Part shown: positions 30,372-33,460 of the stretch, in pieces
Numbering within the stretch: position 1 is the first letter of the stretch
Layout of the letters: every line of letters begins with the position of its first letter
NCBI GenBank assembly: GCA_023265045.1
Contig: JAHFUQ010000020.1
Span: forward strand, 1 to 41,581
DNA: 41,581 nt
Direction of reading: 5' to 3'
Source: Acidimicrobiia bacterium
GTDB lineage: Bacteria > Actinomycetota > Acidimicrobiia > Acidimicrobiales > AC-14
Position numbers and translations under genes: made by a program
Notes under the pieces: generated by a model
Seen by the model: only the letters and a program-made list of their open reading frames with translations
Told to the model about the DNA's origin: nothing
Databases searched by the model: none

Positions 30372-30377
30372 TACGCT
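30372..30377 (+). promoter_or_regulatory. -10 box of the DsrE-family gene
   Basis: TACGCT, 6 nt before ATG 30384; predicts a leaderless mRNA. Confidence 0.55.
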
Positions 30378-30383
30378 GGGTCC

Positions 30384-30746
30384 ATGCAGATCCTCTACAT
30401 GGCCACGAGCGGGTCGGCGGATCCGACCCGCGCATCGATTCCCTTCCACCTGGCGGTCAACGGCTCGGTCGAGGTCGGCCACGAGGTCGGCCTCGTGCTC
30501 GCCGGCGACGCCACCGAGTTCCTCCGGCCTGACCTGCTCGCGGCGTCCGAGGGCCTGGGCCTGCCGCCTCTGCGCGAGCTGTTCGCCAAGGCGCGTGACC
30601 ACCAGCTTGCGGTCTACGTCTGAAAGGCCTGCGCCGTCGCCCGTGGGGCGACCGAGGACCAGCTCGCCGGCGTGGGCGGCCAATGGGTTGCCCCGCCTGA
30701 CGTCGCCCGGCTCATCGAGGAGGCCGACCGGGTCATCACCATCTGA
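30384..30746 (+). CDS. DsrE-family protein, probable selenoprotein (Sec at TGA 30621)
   Basis: 120 residues when TGA 30621-30623 is read as selenocysteine. The N-terminal 79 residues match the DsrE/DsrF-like fold: MQILYMATSGSADPTRASIP, VNGSVEVGHEVGLVLAGDAT, LPPLRELFAKARDHQLAVYV. The TGA follows; the same frame continues K-A-C-A-V-A-R-G-A-T-E-D-Q-L and ends RLIEEADRVITI with TGA 30744. The TGA is residue 80 and forms U-K-A-C, where I expect family members to have C-x-x-C. A hairpin 12 nt later fits a SECIS. Alternatives: a nonsense mutation or read error of TGC. Likely a thiol/selenol relay protein; its partner is unknown. Confidence 0.72.
30624..30652 (+). promoter_or_regulatory. Candidate bacterial SECIS element
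   Basis: After TGA 30621-30623 come 12 nt and then a perfect 7-bp stem, GTCGCCC (30636-30642) with GGGCGAC (30646-30652), capped by GTG. The loop starts 19 nt after the TGA and contains G and U. These match the known rules for bacterial SECIS: an apical loop with G, about 16-37 nt from UGA, in the coding region. GC-rich DNA makes hairpins easily, so the case rests on the position and the coding evidence together. Confidence 0.6.

Positions 30747-30810: not shown

Positions 30811-33460
<2,650 letters not shown>

Follow-up and report, generated by a model that had tools for sequence, protein, structure and literature searches.

Selenoproteins of the DsrE-like family have been reported from bacteria on several occasions. 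One is listed for Desulfovibrio vulgaris, as one entry among 285 (PMC1794560), two were described from the Sargasso Sea (PMC1088965), the GOS data include 19 'DsrE 2' and 2 'DsrE 1' selenoproteins (PMC2398784), and the family appears in the tables of PMC9312934 and PMC13188914; the last four bear out the statement in the initial annotation of the locus described here that DsrE-like proteins are a known bacterial selenoprotein family. A review of 2026 treats them as predicted with high confidence and the function of such families as largely uncharacterised (PMC13188914). In the descriptions available, the published DsrE-like UxxC selenoproteins belong to Pfam PF02635, carry Sec as the first residue of U-x-x-C and have a hairpin after the UGA. 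No DsrE-like selenoprotein from Actinobacteria was found in the accessible portions of the literature searched, and the word DsrE is absent from the main text of PMC12013277 and PMC5029168. The DsrE fold is also that of the sulfurtransferases DsrE (of DsrEFH) and TusD (of TusBCD). According to PMC3397948, DsrE-Cys78 of A. vinosum binds sulfur as a persulfide and is essential, and TusD-Cys78 of E. coli is also an essential residue. YedF, which combines SirA and DsrE domains, is described as having a CGxC redox motif in its DsrE domain and as linked to selenium through its genomic setting (PMC5322559). E. coli YchN (1jx7) has a C-K-T-C motif followed by R-G. To our knowledge the function of YchN has not been established.

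The window, by which we mean the whole stretch of 41,581 nucleotides analysed here, carries on its forward strand a gene at 30384-30746 that is predicted to encode a DsrE-family selenoprotein of 120 residues, with an in-frame TGA at 30621-30623 as Sec80 and a terminator TGA at 30744-30746. Translation with the TGA as U places Sec80 in the context VYVUKACAVARG, in agreement with the initial annotation, which had proposed a 120-residue DsrE-type protein running across the TGA with a U80-K-A-C83 motif; the second position of U-x-x-C is Cys83 (TGC, 30630-30632). The read-through protein matches the Pfam DsrE family over residues 1-119 (58.6 bits, E 8.8e-16), whereas the 79-residue stub before the TGA reaches 18 bits, under the cut-off of 22.7. 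Completion of the Pfam domain by read-through counts in favour of a selenoprotein, and the match above cut-off together with the motif UKAC agrees with the DsrE-like selenoprotein family. An NCBIfam search gave no match. Compared with the published DsrE-like UxxC proteins (reference WP_014524487.1), to which we liken it by descriptions of family and motif, this representative comes from the Actinomycetota. Unlike DsrE and TusD it has Sec for Cys, an additional Cys83 and no other PF02635 match on its contig, and unlike YedF it has no SirA domain and carries Sec in the motif.

TGA in the same column is found in 41 actinobacterial loci, which represent 37 distinct 45-nt stretches. Sixteen of these loci belong to the main family and come from searches of 248 genomes, of the class and of named records; the other 25 come from a search of the phylum. 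They were chosen for carrying TGA, and Cys at +3, which was no selection criterion, is present in 41/41. The gene is full-length in one frame in 36 of the 41, is cut by the contig end in L075 (TGA present), and has one end absent or in another frame in L070, L149, L151 and L152, through either decay or assembly error. All 14 full-length genes aligned are 120 codons long when the nearest ATG or GTG is taken as the start. Across 14 aligned sequences, identity to the copy in the window falls as low as 30%.

Full-length TGA homologues among the 248 related genomes are those of G049 (74% identity), G038 (64%) and G111 (29-30%). With a three-row profile, 25 of the 395 genomes searched in the class gave a match at E <= 1e-8. 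A single TGA is present in 12 rows, 11 of which have it where expected; the copy in G077 is broken, and the match in G460 covers residues 60-120 only. An alignment scan of named records gave six loci (L072-L077), two of which (L072 and L073) lie on the same contigs as G049 and G038 and were counted once. The named records concerned are an Acidimicrobiales MAG (the contig of G049), a Thermoleophilaceae MAG (L074) and an Actinomycetota MAG (L075); L076 is a C-terminal remnant on the same contig as G002, and L077, a weak match without TGA that looks unrelated, was excluded from the count. A 14-row profile matched 94 of 396 genomes of the phylum at E <= 1e-6. TGA is present in each of the best 25 rows, of which G837 supplies two, and the first stop-free row ranks 26th. 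The first 29 rows examined comprise 25 with TGA, all U-x-x-C, and 4 without a stop, all Ser-type; 20 further rows taken from lower in the ranking comprise 3 U-x-x-C, 1 P-G-U, 2 Ser-type and 14 C-x-x-C. Left out of the 41 are the U-P-G-C loci L033, L039, L040 and L041, and the broken loci L027/L057 and L031/L076; three U-x-x-C loci outside the count (L157, L158 and L160) would bring it to 44.

Single-sequence scans of genome contigs and viral contigs returned no relative, and phage records gave no match to the gene. Plasmid matches numbered four, and the two examined are Ser-type. One Ser-type DsrE open frame (L079:3001-3348), on a Microvirga lotononidis plasmid, coincides with no listed gene; the PLSDB table has only 3 features for that whole plasmid record. 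The broken copy in G077 (G077:C57, L027/L057) has its pieces in different frames, in a genome with a SelA match, and G002 (G002:C99, L031/L076) retains only the C-terminal remnant, its SelA match consisting of two fragments.

If the UGA were a true stop, the locus would be a DsrE gene that has been truncated or has decayed; a sequencing error could also account for the TGA. UGA is an ordinary terminator here, used at the end of this very gene, and decay does have precedents in the broken copies of G077 and G002 and in the four TGA loci with a missing or out-of-frame end. These points are outweighed by the recurrence of the same TGA in 41 loci with Cys83 always retained, by the DsrE domain being whole only with read-through, and by selection past the TGA. 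In all 43 within-group pairs pN/pS after the TGA is below 1 (0.20-0.88, and 0.09-0.67 before it), ratios that are rough because pS is often near saturation. The closest pair (G049) gives 0.28 after the TGA and 0.33 before, and in the diverged group some downstream values approach 1. A codon TGC or TGT at 30621, which the initial annotation had named as fatal to its proposal, is likewise opposed by the same TGA in other genomes. We regard a true stop or a sequencing error as scarcely credible.

Just past the UGA on the forward strand the transcript is predicted to form a hairpin of the bacterial SECIS type, with a stem of 7 bp (30636-30642 / 30646-30652) and the loop GUG (30643-30645), which starts 19 nt past the UGA. 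These values fall within the limits given for bSECIS elements in PMC13188914, namely a spacing of 16-37 nt and a G among the first two bases of the loop; no SECIS family in Rfam matches the hairpin. When columns are numbered from the T of TGA (1), the two sides of the stem are columns 16-22 and 26-32, separated by a three-base loop. Among the 41 loci all 7 of the fixed pairs are formed in 28, 6 in 9 and 5 in 4. The loop is GTG in 34 loci and GGG in 7, and the 24-nt element has a folding energy of -7.5 kcal/mol or better in 38. Paired cells make up 93.4%. Shuffling gives 83.6%, with 0/500 shuffles reaching the observed value, and sliding the register gives 34-68%. Cells with a double change number 18 against a shuffled mean of 3.5, and are located at three pairs, a number of pairs that is unremarkable (46/500 shuffles as high). 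In a 20-row set that included the four U-P-G-C loci, 92.1% of cells are paired vs 76.4% after shuffling, and 98/500 shuffles were as high for pairs with a double change and 343/500 for further pair types, so that neither measure stands out.

The 16 homologues without TGA form 2-5 of the 7 pairs, L045 and L069 being out of register, and they differ from the 20 TGA rows by a Mann-Whitney p of 1.5e-7 that is uncorrected for relatedness, the paired counts of the two sets touching at 5. In 33 of the 41 loci the Arg in the loop is encoded by CGT, a codon that accounts for 4 of the 141 Arg codons in four in-frame genes of the window. Taken alone, the hairpin of the window shows no exceptional stability given its composition (z -0.64 and -0.88), and the codons with which its stem overlaps (A-R-G) are conserved. 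Of the 798 TGAs in the window, 26 are followed by a comparable hairpin within the allowed spacing, and 1 of the 798 has one at exactly 19 nt. Judged from the aligned loci, the hairpin is conserved and covarying just downstream of the UGA. A covariance model of it, run against the organism's own genome, found only this gene clearly (next best E 0.54) and so reveals no further selenoproteins there.

The fragmented draft assembly to which the window belongs, as contig C280, comprises 4.3 Mb in 323 contigs and is 85% complete with 5.9% contamination. The selenocysteine machinery that the initial annotation had proposed to look for is all present in this assembly: SelA (401 bits) on contig C235, SelB adjoining it (259 bits, with the SelB winged-helix domain), SelD (334 bits) on C67, and tRNA-Sec in two copies on small contigs (G000:C92:2123-2214, reverse strand, and G000:C102:1020-1111, forward strand; 65.4 and 64.8 bits, anticodon TCA by ARAGORN). 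The two copies differ at 3 positions, and over 1069 bases their flanks share 87.6% identity; the bin may hold a second, related strain, or the locus may have been duplicated. The window, selAB and selD contigs have a GC content of 0.705-0.723 and tetranucleotide profiles correlated at r 0.986-0.990; r is 0.955-0.970 for the short tRNA-Sec loci and 0.947-0.983 for stretches of other genomes. Composition supports, but does not prove, a single organism for the window and the Sec genes. Of the 14 TGA genomes tested, 12 have a SelA match above the cut-off, and the other two, G421 (78% complete) and G528 (56% complete), lack a full SelA. Since SelA is widespread in the class (256 of the 395 genomes, and 9 of the 11 TGA genomes of that draw), its co-occurrence with the TGA gene does not discriminate, and is consistent with a selenoprotein and no more.

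Conservation speaks for read-through and not for its chemistry, and a near-cognate or suppressor tRNA might insert Trp, Cys or some other standard residue at the UGA. It is highly unlikely that this is the case, as the UGA occupies the position of a redox Cys and is followed by a covarying hairpin at fixed spacing, the Sec machinery is present in the assembly, and the stop-free homologues examined have Ser or Cys at the site, never Trp. The original suggestion of a probable selenoprotein is therefore strengthened by the conserved TGA, the hairpin and the machinery, and we estimate at roughly 0.93 the probability that the gene at 30384-30746 encodes a selenoprotein in which UGA 30621 is read as Sec. 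SelB with Sec-tRNA would bind the hairpin through its GUG loop and deliver Sec at this codon, and the terminal UGA at 30744 would end translation of the DsrE-type protein.

Homologues aligned at residue 80, a comparison that the initial annotation had recommended, carry TGA in the 41 loci and Cys in a separate C-x-x-C group. These actinobacterial Cys-type DsrE proteins (C-S/G-A-C; L163, L166, and L030 in G003) share family and motif with the TGA-encoded proteins and have Cys for Sec. They score 66-77 bits with the phylum profile, compared with 100-167 for most TGA rows, and are outscored by the best Ser rows as well. With Cys at this column in the profile, any Cys protein inside the U-x-x-C group would be expected near the top of the ranking, and none appeared among the phylum rows examined. 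In a tree of 64 rows, built on 119 columns and with many forks unresolved, the U-x-x-C proteins, 39 in number, cluster together (support 92/76; recovered in 94% of bootstrap trees). Their cluster adjoins three long-branched Cys-type rows (91/82) and lies apart from the Ser group. DsrE-like UxxC selenoproteins are in print, and none was found for Actinobacteria in the literature searched; most likely we are dealing with a new actinobacterial branch of the known family. The organism's own genome also encodes Cys-containing paralogues without TGA (VSVCPRSTE.., G000:C170:2081-2422 and G000:C12:3361-3630).

An AlphaFold2 model from 22 sequences (pLDDT 95.9, pTM 0.88) has as its best matches in the PDB YchN (1jx7), DsrE (2hy5), 3mc3, 3pnx (Swol_2425) and chain A of TusBCD (2d1p); a lectin match from a single-sequence PDB search was dismissed as chance. 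YchN, the best Foldseek match, shares the layout of U-K-A-C...R-G but has Cys for Sec and is only 18% identical in the structural alignment. Profile alignment places column 80 on the Cys of YchN (E 1.3e-5); for the Cys of yheN/TusD and residue 78 of DsrE, on which it also falls, the E values are marginal (0.012 and 0.019). With respect to DsrEFH/TusBCD, the DsrE fold is thus present with an active residue at the position of residue 78, marginally so by sequence alignment, and no co-encoded DsrF/TusC partner was found, C280 having no other PF02635 match.

The position of Sec80 on the DsrE Cys78 column, together with Cys83 as in a YchN-like C-x-x-C pair, makes a small selenol/thiol enzyme the most likely function, a proposal to which we give even odds. 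The Sec80 selenol would attack a persulfide, disulfide or peroxide, and the intermediate would resolve as a Se-S bond with Cys83. As the main alternative, the selenoprotein may be no redox enzyme and may instead carry sulfur or selenium in a DsrE/TusD-like relay, as would suit the alignment of Sec80 with the persulfide-carrying Cys78 and the occurrence of a different DsrE-type TGA gene after selA-selB in three relatives. We consider this rather unlikely: the second Cys at +3, shared with YchN and not with the aligned DsrE/TusD stretches, suggests a resolving residue, there is no second PF02635 match on the contig, and no neighbour family is common to more than two of the 16 neighbourhoods.

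In the window the gene is followed on the forward strand by genes for a Fur-family regulator (30811-31290) and a KatG-type peroxidase (Pfam peroxidase, 31274-33460). The fur-katG setting pointed out in the initial annotation does adjoin the window copy, but tblastn for Fur and KatG found neither in the 15 other neighbourhoods (3.7-12.4 kb, some ending near the gene), so neither is a conserved neighbour and a general role for them is not suggested. Apart from DsrE stubs, no family occurred in more than two genomes across the 16 neighbourhoods, which were of unequal length and analysed with a crude ORF caller. A TACGCT at 30372-30377 (forward strand), 6 nt before the ATG, is a possible -10 element on sequence grounds only, and would make the mRNA leaderless.

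Further DsrE groups with TGA were encountered. The organism's own genome contains a second such gene (L047, G000:C241:7413-7754, reverse strand) with the motif P-G-U-A-x-[FY]-R-G, in which Sec takes the second Cys position. Relatives with 60-64% identity and TGA are L094 (G008), L095 (G049), L096 (G004) and L097 (G006), and L159 (G755) is also of the P-G-U type. A hairpin lies 21-22 nt past the UGA in 4/5 P-G-U folds and is missing from the best fold of L094. In G004, G006 and G008 the P-G-U gene lies downstream of selA and selB in the same orientation, about 2.2 kb past selA, and the selB ORFs that precede it match SelB. A third TGA group has U-P-G-C in L033 (G191), L039 (G141), L040 (G111), L041 (G038), L106 (G049) and L107 (G235), and U-P-[FY]-S, with Ser at the second Cys position, in L103 (G225), L104 (G241) and L105 (G209); both forms have a similar hairpin. 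It is possible, if improbable, that the Actinomycetota harbour a largely unrecognised and diversified set of DsrE-fold selenoproteins that form a selenium/sulfur relay to cellular targets, the selAB-linked copies perhaps feeding the selenium pathway itself. This proposal draws on the encoding of P-G-U proteins after selA-selB and on there being no Cys member in the U-x-x-C rows read.

Annotation that takes the TGA as a stop would shorten these DsrE-type genes. Read as selenoproteins, they would give the family a wide actinobacterial membership in which the SECIS element is defined, the fold model is confident and the place of Sec is clear, and both the recoding and the chemistry of DsrE-like selenoproteins would thereby become testable.
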